This document shows positions 1,457-15,660 of a DNA stretch of 43,032 nt, piece by piece. Within the stretch, counting starts at the first letter, position 1; every line of letters starts with the position of its first letter. The stretch is taken from assembly GCA_021462855.1 (NCBI GenBank), contig JAJTXQ010000047.1, positions 1-43,032 on the forward strand, in the 5' to 3' direction. Origin of the DNA: Dehalococcoidia bacterium. GTDB lineage: Bacteria > Chloroflexota > Dehalococcoidia > DSTF01 > JACRBR01. The notes under the pieces were generated by a model. That model saw only the letters and a list, made by a program, of their open reading frames with translations. It ran no database searches and was not told the origin of the DNA. The position numbers and the translations under genes are program-made.

Positions 1457-2410
1457 ATGGACCTGATCATCGACCTGTTCGACCTCCTGCTCGTCGACCC
1501 GATGACGAACGTGCTGATCGCGCTGGCGTATGTCTTCAGCGGCAACTTCGGCGTCGCCATCATCGTGTTCACCCTCATCATGAAATTCGTGACGTGGCCG
1601 CTCCCCGCCAGCCAGTACAAGGCGAGCAAGGCCATGCAGGAGATCCAGCCGAAGGTGCAGGAGCTCCAGAAGAAGTACAAGGGCAAGGACCCCAAGAAGC
1701 TCAACCAGGAGATGATGGCGCTCTACCGCGAGCACGGCGTCAACCCGCTCGGGTGCCTCTTGCCGATGCTCGTGCAAATGCCGATCTGGATCGCGCTGTA
1801 CCAGGTCATCCGCGTCACGCTGGGCGAGACGCCGGAAAGCCTGGTGACGCTCTCGCAGCGCATCTACCCGATCGGGTTCGTGCAGGCGGCGATCCCGCTC
1901 GAGAACCACTTCCTGTACTGGAACCTCGGCCAGCCCGACACGTCGCTCGTCCTGCCATTCCTCGTCGCCGCGACGATGTACATCCAGCAGAAGATGATCA
2001 CGCCGGCGCCCTCGCAGACGCTGAACAAGCAGCAGCTGCAGCAGCAGCAGACACAGCAGATGATGACGTGGATGTTGCCGCTGATGTTCGGATTCTGGAG
2101 CCTTAACGTGCCGTCCGGACTGGCGCTGTACTGGTTCATCTCGAACCTCTCCGGGCTCGTGCTCCAGTACTTCTACATGGGCAGGACGGTGAACTGGCGC
2201 AACCTGCTGACGTTTGGTCCGCCGTCCCAGGCGCCTGCGGCGCGTGGCGCGAACCGGCCGCAGCCAAAGCGGGCGGCGGAGCCCGAACCCGAGCCGGAGT
2301 TCGATGACGAACCCGAAGAGACCACCGATGAGTCAACCGGCGCCGTGACTGTCACGACGCCGCAGCATGTTCGAAGGAAGCGCCATGGCCGACGTCGAGG
2401 CAAGCGGTAA
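1457..2410 (+). CDS. yidC: Membrane protein insertase YidC/Oxa1 family
   Basis: YidC inserts and folds membrane proteins, alone or with SecYEG. This 317-aa protein has the short Gram-positive/Oxa1 layout without a large periplasmic domain. Hallmarks are the first core helix (FGVAIIVFTLIMKFVTWPL), the cytoplasmic hairpin with EIQPKVQELQKKYKGKDPKKLNQE, then YREHGVNPLGCLLPMLVQMPIW and a late helix with VPSGLALYWFISNLSGLVLQY. The charged groove residue that is Arg in B. subtilis SpoIIIJ and E. coli YidC aligns with Lys43 here. The C-terminus is Pro/Glu-rich and ends in a strongly basic tail, as expected for ribosome contact. An AAGGGG element lies just before the ATG. Its end overlaps the start of khpB by 26 bp. 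Confidence 0.95.
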   Translation: MDLIIDLFDLLLVDPMTNVLIALAYVFSGNFGVAIIVFTLIMKFVTWPLPASQYKASKAMQEIQPKVQELQKKYKGKDPKKLNQEMMALYREHGVNPLGCLLPMLVQMPIWIALYQVIRVTLGETPESLVTLSQRIYPIGFVQAAIPLENHFLYWNLGQPDTSLVLPFLVAATMYIQQKMITPAPSQTLNKQQLQQQQTQQMMTWMLPLMFGFWSLNVPSGLALYWFISNLSGLVLQYFYMGRTVNWRNLLTFGPPSQAPAARGANRPQPKRAAEPEPEPEFDDEPEETTDESTGAVTVTTPQHVRRKRHGRRRGKR

Positions 2411-3182
2411 GACGGTAGACGAAGCGATCGAGAAGGCGCTCGAAGAGCTCGGCGCCACGCGCGATGAGGTCGAGATCGAGGTGCTCGAGGAGCCGCGCAG
2501 CGGCGTGCTCGGCGTCGGCGGGCACGAGGCGCGCGTGCGCGTCCGGTGGCTCGATGATGACGACGACGAAGATGATGACGGCGATGAAGAGGAGAAGGAC
2601 GCGGACGACGACGCTGCCGGACAGGACGAAGACGCGGGCGACGACGCCGGCAACGCGGCTGCCGATGGCGACGACGGCGAGGACGCCGAGGACGCCGAGG
2701 ACGAGGCCGAGTACGCCGCCCAGATGCTCGATGCGCTGCTGGAGATGATGGGCGTCCGCGCGGACGTGTCGATCCGCGACGCCGAGACGCCGGGCGATGG
2801 CCTCGGGATGGCGGTGGCTGTCCTCGACATCGAAGGCGACGACCTGGGACTGCTGATCGGGCGGCGCGGCGAGACGCTCGCCTCGCTGCAATACCTGGTG
2901 AACCTCATGGTCAGCCATCAGCTCGGCGAGCAGTTCTTCTTCACGATCGATGTCGAGGGCTACCGGCGCCGGCGCGAGCAGACGCTCAACTCGATCGCCC
3001 GGCGCACCGCGGAGCAGGTGAAGCGCACCAGGCGGCCGGCCACGCTCGACCCGATGCCCGCGAACGAGCGCCGGATCATCCACCTTGCGTTGGCCGAGGA
3101 CCGGTACGTGACGACCGAGAGCATCGGCGACGGCGATGAACGCAAGGTATCGATCACGCTGAAGTCGCCGCAGCAGCGGTGA
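2385..3182 (+). CDS. khpB: RNA-binding protein KhpB (Jag/EloR), Jag_N-KH-R3H
   Basis: KhpB/Jag is a cytoplasmic RNA-binding protein that in firmicutes pairs with KhpA and affects cell elongation. Domains over 265 aa: Jag_N at 1-52 (ASGKTVDEAIEKALEELG...GVLGVGG), a very acidic Asp/Glu/Ala linker at about 56-110, a KH domain with the GxxG-type loop IGRRG at 158-162, and an R3H domain with R229..H233 near the C-terminus. The start at 2385 is chosen because AAGGAAG lies just upstream. An ATG at 2367 would add six residues. It overlaps yidC by 26 bp, so the two are probably translationally coupled. The yidC-jag order is widely conserved near bacterial origins. Confidence 0.93.
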   Translation: MADVEASGKTVDEAIEKALEELGATRDEVEIEVLEEPRSGVLGVGGHEARVRVRWLDDDDDEDDDGDEEEKDADDDAAGQDEDAGDDAGNAAADGDDGEDAEDAEDEAEYAAQMLDALLEMMGVRADVSIRDAETPGDGLGMAVAVLDIEGDDLGLLIGRRGETLASLQYLVNLMVSHQLGEQFFFTIDVEGYRRRREQTLNSIARRTAEQVKRTRRPATLDPMPANERRIIHLALAEDRYVTTESIGDGDERKVSITLKSPQQR

Positions 3183-3202
3183 CGCCGTCCGCCGCCGCGC
3201 GT

Positions 3203-3208
3203 TACGAT
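3203..3208 (+). promoter_or_regulatory. Internal -10 element before the PfkB-parAB genes
   Basis: TACGAT lies seven bases before the ATG at 3216, and no Shine-Dalgarno sequence is present. A weak GTGACG lies 18 bp further upstream. The arrangement fits an internal leaderless promoter that would drive pfkB-parA-parB independently of yidC-khpB. Confidence 0.4.
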
Positions 3209-3215
3209 GCCCCGG

Positions 3216-4067
3216 ATGACGCGCCCGCCTGACTTCGTCACGATCGGCCACGCGGTGCGGGATCTCGTGCCCGGGGGCTGGCGGCTCGGCGGGACGGTGA
3301 CGTTCGCCGCGGTGCAGGCGCACCGCCTGGGACTGCGGGTGGGCGTGGTCACGCGCGCATCGGCGGATGTGGATGTCGCGGCTGAGCTTCCGTTCGCGAC
3401 GGTGGTGCAGGGAGCGTCGCCTGTGACGACGTGCTTCGAGAACGTGTATGAGCGCGGCCACCGCAGGCAGCGGGTGCGCGAGCACGCGGCGCCGATCGCG
3501 GTCGCCGACGTGCCTGACGCCTGGCGCGAGGCGCCGATCATCCTCGTCGGGCCGGTGTTTGGCGAGGTGGACGCCGCGCTCGCGGCGTCGTTGCAGGAGC
3601 AATCAGTGGTCGGCGTGTCGGCGCAGGGTTGGCTGCGCGCCGCCGACGAAGAGGGAAATGTCGTCCGCGCGCCGTGGACCGGTGCGCCGTTCTGGGCCGG
3701 CGCCGACGCCGTCTTCGTGTCGGACGAGGATCTCGCGGACGGCGAGCACCAGCTCGATGACTGGGCGCGCGACGTGGCGGTGATCGGCATGACGGAGTCG
3801 TACCGCGGAGCGCGCATGTGGTCCGGCGGCGCGTGGCGGCGGATGGAGGCGTTTCCGGGCGACGAGGTCGACCCGACGGGCGCGGGCGACACGTTCGCCA
3901 CCGCGTTCCTGGTGCGGTGGCGCGAGACGGGCGACGTCGGGGAGGCGGCGCGGTTCGGCGCCGCGGCGGCGAGCCTGTCGATCGCCGGCGTTGCATGCGA
4001 ATCGACGCCCGACCGCGCGCAGATCGAGCAGCGGATGCGCGCGCACCCGGAGGTGGCGCTGCGATGA
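3216..4067 (+). CDS. PfkB-family carbohydrate kinase
   Basis: A ribokinase/PfkB-family sugar or nucleoside kinase of 283 aa from the ATG at 3216; an ATG at 3207 overlaps the putative -10 box and is less likely. The C-terminal PfkB signature is clear at DPTGAGDTFATAFL, which holds the anion hole and the catalytic Asp of the GAGD motif. The N-terminal half is shorter and less typical: the GG pair of signature 1 appears as RLGGTVTFAAVQAHRLG. The substrate cannot be read from sequence. It ends in an ATGA overlap with parA, so it is co-translated with the partition genes. A kinase between khpB and parA has no obvious link to segregation. Confidence 0.85.
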   Translation: MTRPPDFVTIGHAVRDLVPGGWRLGGTVTFAAVQAHRLGLRVGVVTRASADVDVAAELPFATVVQGASPVTTCFENVYERGHRRQRVREHAAPIAVADVPDAWREAPIILVGPVFGEVDAALAASLQEQSVVGVSAQGWLRAADEEGNVVRAPWTGAPFWAGADAVFVSDEDLADGEHQLDDWARDVAVIGMTESYRGARMWSGGAWRRMEAFPGDEVDPTGAGDTFATAFLVRWRETGDVGEAARFGAAAASLSIAGVACESTPDRAQIEQRMRAHPEVALR

Positions 4068-4837
4068 CGGCGACGGTGATCGCGCTCGCGAACCAGAAAG
4101 GCGGCGTCGGCAAGACAACGACGGCGATCAACCTCGGCGCGTCGCTGGCGCGCGCGGGGCGCACGGTGTTGATCTTCGACTTCGACCCGCAGGCGAACTC
4201 CAGCGCCGGCCTCGGCATCCGCACGACCGGGTTCAGCACGTACGACGCCGTGATCGGCGATGTAGGTGTGCGGGAAATGGTCGTAGGGACAACGATCGAG
4301 GGCCTGTCGCTCGCGCCCGCGACGCCCGCGCTCGCCGGCGCGGAAGTCGAGCTCGTGCCGATGATGGCGCGGGAGTTCCGCCTGAAGCGCGCGCTCGAGC
4401 CGCTGCGCGCGTTGTACGACTACATCCTCATCGACTGCCCGCCATCGCTGGGGCTGCTGACCGTCAACGCGCTGGCGGCGGCCGATGAAGTGATCGTGCC
4501 GGTGCAGTGCGAGTACCTGGCGCTGGAAGGGCTCGGCCAGCTGACGTCGACGCTCGAGCTCGTGCGCCGCAACCTGAACCCGCAGCTGCGCCTGCGCGGC
4601 CTGCTGCTGACGATGTTCGACGCGCGCACGAACCTGTCCCAGCAAGTGGCCGATGAAGTGCGGCGCCACTTTGCCAACACGTTCCGGACGGTCATCCCGC
4701 GGAGCGTGCGCCTGAGCGAGGCGCCGAGCCACGGCCTGCCGATCGCACGCTATGACCCGTCGTCGCGGGCGAGCCGGGCCTACGACGAACTCGCCGAAGA
4801 ACTGATTGCCGGCACGCGCACGGAGGTCCCCGCATGA
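4064..4837 (+). CDS. parA: Chromosome partitioning ATPase ParA (Soj)
   Basis: ParA is the DNA-binding ATPase that moves ParB-parS complexes. The 257-aa protein begins with the deviant Walker A motif KGGVGKT at residues 12-18 (signature lysines K12 and K17). It continues with FDFDPQANSSAGLG (Walker A prime) and DYILIDCPPSLGLLTVNAL (Walker B), and then PVQCEYLALEGL and the conserved RSVRLSEAPSHGLPI. The length is normal for a chromosomal Soj protein without an N-terminal HTH. The longer open frame upstream only reads through pfkB; the ATG at 4064 overlaps the pfkB stop as ATGA. Its own stop overlaps the parB start in the same way. Together with parS it forms a complete ParABS system. Confidence 0.97.
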   Translation: MTATVIALANQKGGVGKTTTAINLGASLARAGRTVLIFDFDPQANSSAGLGIRTTGFSTYDAVIGDVGVREMVVGTTIEGLSLAPATPALAGAEVELVPMMAREFRLKRALEPLRALYDYILIDCPPSLGLLTVNALAAADEVIVPVQCEYLALEGLGQLTSTLELVRRNLNPQLRLRGLLLTMFDARTNLSQQVADEVRRHFANTFRTVIPRSVRLSEAPSHGLPIARYDPSSRASRAYDELAEELIAGTRTEVPA

Positions 4838-5715
4838 GCACCCAGCGTCCAGCCCTCGGCCGCGGCCTGTCCGCGCTCATCCCGCAAGCAGGCGCCGGCG
4901 GCGCGGTCGAGTCGGTCGACATCGACCTCGTCGCGCCGAACCCGCAGCAGCCGCGCATCCGCTTCGACCGCGGGGCGCTCGACGAGCTTGCGGCGAGCAT
5001 CCGCGAACACGGGGTGCTGCAGCCGATCATCGTGACGCGCACCGGCGACCAGAACGGGCCGATGACGTATCAGCTCGTCGCCGGCGAGCGGCGCCTGCAG
5101 GCCGCGCGCATCGCCGGCCTCACGCGCATCCCGGTGCTGATCAAGGAAGCGGCTGGCACCGAGCTGCTCGAGCTGGCGCTCGTCGAGAATATCCAGCGCG
5201 AAGACTTGAACCCGATCGAGGAGGCGCTTGCCTACCGGCGGCTCTCGGAGGAGTTCGGGCACACGCAGGAGGAGATCGCCAAGCGCGTCGGCCGTGGCCG
5301 CGTCGCCGTCGCGAACGCGATGCGGCTGCTCGGGCTCGAGGAGGACATCCGCGCGAGCATCGCCTCCGGGCAGATCAGCGAGGGGCACGCGCGCGCGCTG
5401 CTGGCGATCGACGACGGCGCGCTGCGGCTCGATGCCTGGCGACGGATCGTCGCCGACGCGTTGACCGTGCGCCAGGCCGAGGAGATCGCGCGGCAGTTGC
5501 GCGCGACTGCGGCGCCGCCGCGCGCGAAGCCGGACGGCCGCGCTGCGCGGCACGCCGACCCGCACCTGCAGGCGGCGGAGGGGCGGCTGCGCCAGGCGCT
5601 CGGCGCGAAGGTGTCGATCACGAAGAGCCGTCGTGCCGGCGGGCGCATCGTCATCAGCTACCACAGTGACGACGAGCTGACGGGCATTCTCGACCGCATC
5701 GCCCGCGAGGGATGA
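4834..5715 (+). CDS. parB: Chromosome partitioning protein ParB (Spo0J)
   Basis: ParB is the CTP-dependent clamp that binds parS. Over 293 aa it shows the N-terminal RGLSALIP box, the box NPQQPR, the CTP-binding motif GERRLQAARIAG at 84-95 (usual form GERRxRAA), and ENIQREDLNPIEEA at 118-131. A helix-turn-helix covers about 143-165 (TQEEIAKRVGRGRVAVANAMRLL), and a C-terminal dimerisation region follows a basic linker. The start overlaps the parA stop as ATGA. Two perfect cognate parS sites lie at 70-124. The next gene is convergent, so parB ends the operon. Confidence 0.97.
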   Translation: MSTQRPALGRGLSALIPQAGAGGAVESVDIDLVAPNPQQPRIRFDRGALDELAASIREHGVLQPIIVTRTGDQNGPMTYQLVAGERRLQAARIAGLTRIPVLIKEAAGTELLELALVENIQREDLNPIEEALAYRRLSEEFGHTQEEIAKRVGRGRVAVANAMRLLGLEEDIRASIASGQISEGHARALLAIDDGALRLDAWRRIVADALTVRQAEEIARQLRATAAPPRAKPDGRAARHADPHLQAAEGRLRQALGAKVSITKSRRAGGRIVISYHSDDELTGILDRIAREG

Positions 5716-9317: not shown

Positions 9318-9794
9318 CTAGCTGATCTTCGTGATCTTCAGGGTGATGATGCCCTTCGGCGCGTTCACCTGCACCTCGTCGTGCAACTTCTTGCCGATGA
9401 GCGCGCGGCCAACCGGGGACTCGTGGCTGATCTTGCCCTCGCGCGGGTCGGTCTCCGCCGGGCCGACGACGGTGTACTCCTTGACCTTGCCGTCTTCGCT
9501 GCTACGCACCTTTACGGTGCTGCCGAGCACGACGATCTTCGACTTGTGCGCGCCGTCCTCGTCGATCACGGCGGCGTTGGTGAGCAGGCTCTGCAACTGC
9601 TGGATGCGACCCTCGACCATCGCCTGTTCGTTCTTGGCGTCCTCGTACTCGGCGTCGTTCGGCGTGCTCATGAGCTCTTTCGCGAGCCGGATCTTCTCGG
9701 CGATTTCCGGCCGGCGCTCGGTCTCGAGGTAGTGCAGCTCTTCCTGGATCTTGTGCAGGCCGTCCTTCGTGATCGGCTGAGGCTTGTCGGTCAT
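9318..9794 (-). CDS. greA: Transcription elongation factor GreA
   Basis: GreA rescues backtracked RNA polymerase by stimulating transcript cleavage through the secondary channel. The 158-aa length is normal. The N-terminal coiled coil begins ITKDGLHKIQEELHYLETERRPEIAEKI and carries the acidic tip STPNDAEYEDAKNEQA. The C-terminal FKBP-like domain contains VVGPAETDPREGKISHESPVGRALIGKK and ends in ITLKITKI. The start at 9794 has a strong AAGGAGAG ribosome-binding site; the longer frame to 9977 would read through the promoter and leader terminator. The gene is preceded by a 5' leader of about 140 nt with an intrinsic terminator. Confidence 0.97.
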   Translation of the reverse strand: MTDKPQPITKDGLHKIQEELHYLETERRPEIAEKIRLAKELMSTPNDAEYEDAKNEQAMVEGRIQQLQSLLTNAAVIDEDGAHKSKIVVLGSTVKVRSSEDGKVKEYTVVGPAETDPREGKISHESPVGRALIGKKLHDEVQVNAPKGIITLKITKIS

Positions 9795-9898
9795 GCGGTC
9801 TCTCCTTCCGAGCGCGCGCGCTGGCGGGGTCGTGCGAGCGGGCGGCGGATGCTCCTGCCGGGCGGCGCTCGCTGGTTCGTTATCGGCGGATCGCGTCG

Positions 9899-9925
9899 AA
9901 AAAAAAGCTGAGGCCGGTGCCTCAG
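9899..9925 (-). terminator. Intrinsic terminator inside the greA 5' leader (attenuator)
   Basis: Read on the - strand, CTGAGGC-ACCG-GCCTCAG is a perfect 7-bp stem with a 4-nt loop, followed by C and eight T residues. It lies only about 18 nt downstream of the greA -10 box and about 105 nt before the greA ATG. The upstream neighbour is divergent, so the only transcripts this terminator can stop are those started at the greA promoter. The expected product is an RNA of roughly 35-40 nt. Confidence 0.85.
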
Positions 9926-9942
9926 GCGCGAGTACGCGGCAG

Positions 9943-9971
9943 AGTATACCCGCGCACCCCGAGGCTGTAAA
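9943..9971 (-). promoter_or_regulatory. Consensus-like housekeeping promoter of greA
   Basis: On the - strand TTTACA (9966-9971), a 17-bp spacer and TATACT (9943-9948) match the primary sigma factor consensus well. The start site should lie near 9936, just before the leader terminator. Confidence 0.8.
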
Positions 9972-10053
9972 GTTCACATTCGCGGCATTTCCGGGCGATC
10001 GCGAACCTGCGTCCGGCGGCCTCCGGCATGCCCGGAGCCGCCCCGGGGCTCCG

Positions 10054-13658: not shown

Positions 13659-15377
13659 TTAGTTTCCGAACGGCGCGGGCGGGGCGACCGGCGGCTGCGG
13701 CTGGATCGGGTGCTGGCACGTCGAGCCGTCGCGCCCGAACACCTTCTGCAGGTCCTTGATGTCGATGTCCAGGTCGTGGACGTTTGGCTCCAGGTCGTAC
13801 CACTTGCTGTACAGCAGGCTGCCGAAGTACGACGCGTAGCGGAACGCGATCATCTGCTGGTCTACGACATCGACGTGGCAGTCGAGGTTCAGGTCGCCCT
13901 CGAGGATGCGTACGGTGACCGCCAGGTCGCCGCAGACGGGCGTCAGGCCACCGTTCACCGATCCGATCACCGGATGACCAAAGACATCGACCAGCTCGCA
14001 GCCGTTGTCCTTCAGGACGGTGACCACACCGTTGTCGTTGCCCGGGAAGATGTCGTTCGTCAGGTCGGGATGCGGGATCAACGTCAGCCGCGCGAGGTCG
14101 AAGTCACCGGTCGGGCCCGGAGGCAGCGGGCCGGTGGTGGCGCAGCCGAAGCGCACGAGGTTCTCGAACACGAGCGAGAACGCGCACGTTGCCGGCCCGC
14201 GCGATGCGCCCGCGCCGCCCGGCGAGAACACGATGTCCTGCGGGTTCACGGACTGGATGACGAAGTTGTCGTACTCCACCTGGAACTCGTACGCCCCGAG
14301 CCCATCCTCCAGCCCGTCGGCGTTGGCGTCGCCGGTGCGCACGTTAAGCGCGCGCTCGATGACGATGAGCTTGCCCTCGTTGTTGCCGGCGCACGGGCCG
14401 GTCGCGCACAGGAACAGGTTCGCCGCGGGAATGAGCAGGTCAACGTTCTCGCTGTTGCCCTGCGGCACCTTGATCACCCCCGGCGTCGCCGTGCCCGAAG
14501 GCGTGGAGGTTGGGCTGCCGGTGGGCGTGCTCGTGACCACGATCTCGGTGGCGGTGCTGGTGGCGGTGGCCGTGCTCGTCTCGGTGGCGGTGCTGGTCGG
14601 CGTCGGCGTGCTGGTCTCGGTGGCGGTGCTGGTGGCCGTGGCCGTGCTGGTTTCGGTAGCGGTGCTGGTCGGCGTCGCCGTCGCGGTGTCCTCGGGCGTG
14701 CTCGTGCCCGTGGGCGTGGCGGTTGCGGTGGCGGACGGCGTCTCCGTCGCCGTGGCCGTCGATGTCGGCGTGGGCGTCGGTGAGATCATCTTCGTCACGG
14801 ACACCGCGTTGGCGTCGAAGCAGTATGTCTGGATGAGCGGGTCGCGGACCGAGGGGCCGGCGATGCAGTCCTCGTCGCGATCGTGCTTGTTGCCGATCAC
14901 CCGCACGCGGGCGATAAGCAGGCCGCCGCTGAGGTCCGCGCTGTCCGCGGAATACGGCACCGTCGAGGGGCACTCGATCGATGCGCCGGAGGCGAGCGCC
15001 GGGATGGTGCAGGCGTAGGTGTAGCTGTCGCCGATCGGCGGCAGGTCGACGAAGACATCGATGTCGAACGCGGTGCAACCGACGGTTGCGCCGCCGGGGT
15101 ATGCCGCGCCGAGGCGATACGGCATGCTCTGTCCCTGCGGCACGGGCTGCGAGACGGCGGGGTCGATGCGGATGGTCGCTGCCGCGACGCCGACCGTCGG
15201 ATCGCACGTCGACGGCTCGATGCTGGCGAACGCCGGTGTGCCGGACTCGTTGCCCGGGCGGAACAGCAGGATGGCAGTCGCGACGGTGGCGAGGGTGAGC
15301 GCCAGCCCGAGGGCGGCCGTCGCCGGCAGGCGTCCGCGCTCCCCGTGCCTGGAGAGCGCCATCCGCATCCAGTTCAT
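13659..15377 (-). CDS. Surface protein with Thr-rich stalk, cohesin-like and dockerin-like domains
   Basis: A 572-aa cell-surface protein. Residues 18-40 are a hydrophobic signal or anchor ([23 protein letters not shown]), and about 50-195 form a Cys-containing beta domain. Residues 199-300 are a Thr/Ser/Pro/Ala/Glu low-complexity stalk. Residues about 336-450 resemble a cohesin domain ([19 protein letters not shown]...[12 protein letters not shown]). Residues 494-554 resemble a type I dockerin with two calcium loops ([19 protein letters not shown] and [21 protein letters not shown]), followed by a Pro-rich tail. Carrying both partners suggests self-assembly or a scaffold role. The ATG at 15377 has CGGGAGT upstream; the open frame to 15554 runs through the leader RNA. 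No enzymatic domain was recognised. Confidence 0.8.
14478..14783 (-). repeat. Tandem repeat encoding a Thr/Ser/Ala-rich stalk
   Basis: The DNA repeats short GTGGC/GTGCTGGT-like units that encode [20 protein letters not shown]. The clearest period is 24 codons (72 bp), seen twice, built from smaller Ser-Thr-Ala-Thr-Glu-Thr blocks. The repeat stays in frame, so it is a coding minisatellite that can change stalk length by slippage or recombination. Confidence 0.8.
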
Positions 15378-15660
15378 ACGTACTCCCGTCTCGGCGGGGC
15401 CGGGAGCGTCCCGGCCAGGGTTCTTCCCGCGGGCTACGCGCCCGTACACATCAGAACTACTTGACAGCCCGTTCGTATCACGCCATCCCGCAGACATGCC
15501 GGTGCCCGCCGGGCGCGATTCCGGCCCCGGAAGCAGGCGCGTGCATGCCTGCAACGGAAGCCAGCGCGCCTCCGTGCGTGCGTGGATCGGGGAGCCATGC
15601 GGGGCTGGCGTAGCCCGCCTCTCAGGCGGTCAGGCCGGCGGGAGTGGCCTGATGGGTGAC
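15378..15660 (-). ncRNA. Structured 5' leader of the cohesin/dockerin gene (candidate cis-regulatory RNA)
   Basis: The intergenic stretch 15378-15710 contains no convincing gene. On the - strand the expected transcript starts near 15660 and runs about 283 nt to the ATG. It can form several perfect hairpins: TCAGGCC/GGCCTGA (15630-15652), AGGCGG/CCGCCT type (15615-15629), GGGCT/AGCCC (15602-15616, sharing two bases with the previous one) and GGCCGGGA/TCCCGGCC (15398-15416) just before the ribosome-binding site. It does not match the conserved cores of c-di-GMP, cobalamin or fluoride riboswitches as I know them. Function is unknown. Confidence 0.4.

Follow-up and report, generated by a model that had tools for sequence, protein, structure and literature searches.

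Introduction

GreA is an RNA-polymerase rescue factor, and in Escherichia coli it raises termination in vivo in its own leader, GraL, by a route that is not known; a GreA variant carrying D41A is unable to repress greA (PMC6829880). That work leaves open which factor drives termination at GraL and whether cleavage is used directly. Naville & Gautheret (2010, PMC2965389) have also predicted premature terminators ahead of greA/rnk in Bacilli and Clostridia. Here we analyzed a 43,032-nt stretch of DNA from a Dehalococcoidia bacterium (contig JAJTXQ010000047.1; hereafter, the window), in which an initial annotation, made from the letters alone, had proposed a GraL-like layout ahead of greA, outside the Proteobacteria. 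The layout is indeed there; it is not the first of its kind, given the attenuators predicted for Bacilli and Clostridia. As a kind, greA attenuators are known or predicted in Enterobacteria, Bacilli and Clostridia, and what is new is the Chloroflexota element only. In the literature that we searched, we found no description of a phylum-wide element with a conserved stem, of its separation from GreA catalysis, or of the contrast with a Gre paralog.

Results

The protein encoded in the window scores as a GreA equivalog (NF001263, 163.8 bits against a cut-off of 145), and Pfam agrees. A longer frame of 219 aa, which would start at a GTG at 9977 and run through the leader, was rejected because homology to GreA starts at the ATG at 9794. 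Across the phylum lysS adjoins greA in 39 of 60 loci examined; in the window the two genes are 28 kb apart. By eye, genes for yidC, a jag-like protein, a carbohydrate-kinase-like protein, parA and parB stand in a row on the plus strand (1457-5715), the usual surroundings of a replication origin, with greA about 4 kb further on, and the minus strand (13659-15554) encodes a large protein, predicted to be exported, that combines long Thr/Pro/Ala/Glu repeats with a C-terminal part resembling a dockerin.

The annotated promoter (TTTACA, 17 bp, TATACT; 9971-9943, minus strand) is present, as are the perfect 7-bp stem, the 4-nt loop and the eight T residues behind it (9925-9899), and the distance from there to the greA ATG is 105 nt, as had been estimated (Table 1). 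This is the sole promoter-like site within 3 kb (0.2 expected), and the 3.0-Mb host genome contains a single copy of TTTACA-N16-18-TATAMT. The stem begins 17 nt after the -10 hexamer, and termination is predicted at about +38 in the window and at 35-70 nt in the class. As had also been argued, the terminator can act on the greA transcript only, since the neighboring gene (from 10078, plus strand) is divergent. The possibility that the hairpin terminates a neighboring gene was rejected on this ground and because, in relatives whose upstream gene is co-directional (L014-L017), that gene has its own, separate terminator-like hairpin ahead of the greA promoter.

Table 1. Positions of the features discussed (window numbering unless another locus is named)
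Feature	Position	Strand	Remarks
-35 hexamer TTTACA	9966..9971	-	Identical hexamer in 50/54 class leaders that pass the strict test
-10 hexamer TATACT	9943..9948	-	17-bp spacer from -35
Expected transcription start	near 9936	-	Predicted from the promoter
Terminator hairpin CTGAGGC-ACCG-GCCTCAG	9908..9925	-	7 bp, 4-nt loop; conserved stem core CTGAG/CTCAG
Hairpin parts	CTGAGGC 9925-9919; loop ACCG 9918-9915; GCCTCAG 9914-9908	-	7/7 pairs
U-tract CTTTTTTTT	9899..9907	-	C 9907, T8 9906-9899; expected 3' end of short RNA
Predicted short leader RNA, ~38 nt	9899..9936	-	Predicted from promoter and terminator
Match of covariance model R1	9894-9931	-	32.2 bits
Shine-Dalgarno GGAAGGAG of greA	9802..9809	-	
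greA start codon ATG	9794-9792	-	
greA, 158 aa	9318..9794	-	Pfam, NCBIfam; S/N at equivalents of E. coli D41/E44
Gre fusion paralog	L001 1246-2118 (host contig C6)	-	Others: L344-L363

In the full window leader the terminator stem is predicted to pair with a probability of 0.96-1.0, and folding of the read-through leader predicts, for the window sequence, that the U-tract can pair with the greA Shine-Dalgarno sequence. The predicted ~38-nt RNA folds at -12.2 kcal/mol (z of -1.84 relative to shuffled versions of itself). This energy is only moderately unusual and says little on its own, and conservation was therefore taken as the test. A known riboswitch or other RNA family was rejected as an explanation, as an Rfam search of the window leader gave zero family matches, including to the enterobacterial greA leader.

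Of 60 relatives, 58 gave Gre-family matches. The upstream regions of the greA orthologues share one arrangement in almost every member of the family and order and in much of the class (Dehalococcoidia): TTTACA and TATAMT lie 17-18 bp apart, and after a gap that ranges from a few nucleotides to a few dozen come a hairpin with the base (G)ACTGAG...CTCAGT(C) and a U-tract. Under a strict test (promoter at least 10/12, with a strong terminator within 60 nt), this layout was present in 54 of 105 class leaders and in none of 525 shuffles, in 31 of 70 leaders of other Chloroflexota and in none of 350 shuffles, and in none of 671 windows taken elsewhere in these loci. For the class this is a conservative figure, because 60 of the 105 leaders were chosen for having been missed by the covariance model R1 described below. 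When a strong terminator anywhere within the final 170 nt was counted, 76/105 class leaders had one, compared with 14/525 shuffled sequences. Together, conservation and the shuffle and other-window controls rule out a chance hairpin. Chloroflexus-type genomes carry the stem AACTGAGAG...CTCTCAGTT behind TTTACA-17-TATAAT; we take G398 to be Chloroflexus aurantiacus, G440 Roseiflexus and G391 Herpetosiphon. Some lineages swap the stem (GACTGTGGGC/GCCCGCAGTC; GCGGGCTTGCCG/CGGTGAGTCCGC) and still have a terminator-like hairpin. The hairpin is not essential, since a minority of leaders lack it although greA is present (for example L009, from the same family, and L245, L246, L248 and L251). The sequence ahead of the stem is not conserved among leaders, and its length varies: the gap between the -10 hexamer and the stem is at most 12 nt, and as little as 2 nt, in 28 of 85 leaders, and up to 56 nt in the others. 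A gap of 12 nt or less means that the stem begins within about six nucleotides of the expected transcription start.

Pairing within the stem was examined in an alignment of 33 hairpins, where 95.8% of the cells in nine pairs hold standard pairs, double changes number 11 cells compared with 2.6 in shuffles, and pairing drops to 25-53% when the structure is slid; the loop and the 5' part vary between relatives. Among 76 leaders from the class and the phylum, pair 5 is GC in 29, AT in 27 and GT in 16, pair -2 is GC in 32, GT in 18 and AT in 14, and pair 6 is GC in 52 and CG in 12. Thus, pairs above and below the stem core vary with compensation, many of them as G-U; the near-fixed pairs of the core were not counted as evidence, since these 76 leaders were selected by that core. 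The consensus stem ACTGAGgg...ccCTCAGT, followed by a U-tract, lies ahead of greA across the class and in other Chloroflexota. Both the stem conservation and the compensatory changes that the initial annotation had named as a check are therefore found in relatives. A G+C-rich hairpin and U-tract between promoter and start codon, conserved through compensatory changes, are what define an intrinsic attenuator, and the greA leader has them all.

When the host genome was searched with R1, the top match was the window leader (32.2 bits) and the next scored 23.5 bits (E 0.05). Across 294 class genomes R1 gave 88 matches, 72 of which sit 11-81 nt upstream of greA on the same strand, and these counts are lower bounds because the scan scores only some candidates per genome (the host leader itself was missed). 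Several further matches precede greA genes that are too divergent for our greA list.

For the most part, the hairpin and greA occur together: of 14 class genomes that have no canonical greA, 13 have a lysS without such a hairpin, and in several of these 13 lysS still has a TTTAC(A/T)..TATAAT-like promoter. The remaining genome (G034) has the full promoter and hairpin module directly before lysS (L179 1501-1541). The same element was also considered for the genes of a Gre fusion paralog and was rejected, the strict layout being present at 0 of 21 of them.

In the window GreA, S and N stand at the positions aligned with D41 and E44 of the E. coli catalytic tip. Among 43 GreA proteins of the class (L003-L045), 38 have neither tip acid and two have D/D (L022 and L024); tips are of the STQNNAEY type as opposed to GDLKENAEY, in proteins that still score as GreA. 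Chloroflexus-type GreA, behind the same leader, keeps D/E. The second Gre gene encodes about 290 aa, of which the N-terminal ~130 aa have no Pfam match and are followed by GreA; these fusion paralogs keep D/E in 21 of 21 cases. To the eye, their N-terminal part resembles the SAM-like domain of tyrosine recombinases. In a tree, class GreA groups with its counterparts from other Chloroflexota and a separate clade (100/99) holds the fusion paralogs, which removes the concern that the two had been confused; the D/D forms fall beside the rest of the class with modest support. Based on the tip residues and the tree placement, the leader predates and has outlived the loss of the catalytic acids. Judged from these alignments, the 'GreA' annotation in this class probably hides a protein without cleavage activity.

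Outside the Chloroflexota, 18 of 53 greA leaders have the strict layout, with other stems. Negativicutes and Clostridia leaders (L075, L097, L105, L118; L074, L078, L126) have recurring stems near the promoter, AGTGTCAAG/CTTGACACT and GCACTGC/GCAGTGC. R1 has weak matches ahead of greA in one record of the Armatimonadetes (23 bits) and one of the Bacillota (17 bits), so the stem may predate the phylum. The stem before greA in an Armatimonadetes and a Bacillota genome (L087 1062-1105 and L128 1106-1131) is the same CTGAGGG...CCCTCAG, and L087 has an apparent second terminator nearer greA. The initial annotation had left a choice between a convergent and an ancient origin. From the shared promoter and stem, the promoter and hairpin module looks old within the Chloroflexota; to E. 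coli GraL there is no detectable sequence relation.

Discussion

These observations, which establish the sequence layout, its conservation, the covariation of the stem and the association with greA, provide the basis for a model in which the element is probably a promoter-proximal intrinsic attenuator, an old promoter and hairpin module of the greA(-lysS) unit, with read-through set at RNA polymerase. Polymerase would start near 9936 and transcribe into the hairpin within about 12 nt; part of the polymerases would be released at the U-tract with a ~38-nt RNA and the rest would continue into greA, so that termination in vivo would be partial. Read-through could be set by pausing or backtracking at the U-tract, by NusA/NusG or by Gre-type secondary-channel factors. 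In the 28 of 85 leaders with gaps of 12 nt or less, an aptamer, a leader peptide or an upstream antiterminator cannot fit; because a third of members leave no space for a sensor, and by comparison with E. coli, we infer that control, if any, acts on RNA polymerase itself. In leaders with gaps of up to 56 nt, more could fit.

How such control would be exerted depends on the Gre proteins. The initial annotation had suggested autoregulation by GreA, and self-regulation of the GraL type, in which the GreA encoded by this gene raises termination in its leader as in E. coli, would fit the likeness of layout (short 5' part, terminator, greA), the near-complete loss of the hairpin where greA is gone (13/14) and the retention of D41/E44 in the GreA proteins of other classes that share the leader. 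However, the GraL system has a cleavage-competent GreA (D41, E44) encoded by the regulated gene; in the window these positions are S/N, the leader has been kept although 38/43 class proteins also lack both acids, and GreA D41A does not repress in E. coli (PMC6829880). The window GreA cannot run a loop that depends on cleavage, and the suggestion is weakened to the point that we regard it as unlikely. Any control that requires cleavage would, in this organism, come from the Gre fusion paralog and not from the greA product. This leaves three options: action of the paralog, a role of GreA that does not involve cleavage, and a fixed brake. That the paralog controls termination ahead of a non-cleaving GreA, itself likely a competitor for the secondary channel, such that self-feedback has turned into a balance of active and silent Gre proteins, is a speculation that we hold doubtful. 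A fixed brake, by which the hairpin would remove a constant share of transcripts and keep greA low despite a strong promoter without regulation, seems possible, though we do not favor it. The elements are very short with no visible sensor, the promoter that accompanies the terminator is near consensus, and a minority of lineages have retained greA but not the hairpin, all of which fit a fixed brake; but a weaker promoter would be a simpler route to a fixed rate, and phylum-wide conservation of the CTGAG/CTCAG stem goes beyond the needs of a bare terminator.

Two further readings assign the conserved stem a different role. The short RNA could be the main product, acting in trans on other mRNAs: a defined ~38-nt RNA is predicted, its stem is conserved, and GraL of E. 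coli reportedly acts in trans (PMC6829880). Nevertheless, the loop and 5' part vary between relatives, leaving no conserved pairing region visible, and we consider a trans-acting role very unlikely. The dyad might instead work as DNA, as an operator that a dimeric repressor binds immediately downstream of the promoter; an inverted repeat with conserved half-sites would suggest this. Against it, the half-sites lie from 3 to more than 20 nt apart, the repeat often contains G-T mismatches, which would be G-U pairs in RNA, and it is followed by a T-tract. Both the G-U pairs and the variability of the loop point to RNA, and the operator was set aside as the least credible of the readings.

The leader hairpin, kept over very long evolutionary time, is an RNA element that spans the phylum and had no annotation, and it stands where a core transcription gene begins. 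The phylum also offers a natural experiment, with the same leader before GreA proteins with and without catalytic residues, and a comparison of Chloroflexus-type genomes (catalytic GreA) with Dehalococcoidia (non-catalytic GreA and a catalytic paralog) makes the GraL question testable.

Among known systems, attenuators of the riboswitch, T-box and leader-peptide types likewise place an intrinsic terminator in the 5' leader and attenuate transcription; the Chloroflexota element differs in having no Rfam match and, in a third of members, only 2-12 nt before the stem. The greA attenuators of Bacilli and Clostridia (PMC2965389) share a premature terminator ahead of greA, and for each of them an antiterminator was reported, whereas none is evident here. 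The stem of E. coli GraL (RF01769, 'Enterobacteria greA leader') is unrelated in sequence and structure: RF01769, which scores 127.5 bits on E. coli as a positive control, has no match with an E of 1 or below in window positions 9780-9990, R1 has none at the E. coli greA locus, and E. coli GreA has the catalytic tip that the window GreA lacks. What the two leaders have in common is their arrangement, in which a terminator stands in greA's own leader shortly behind the promoter, the greA start lies well downstream and a short RNA is expected.
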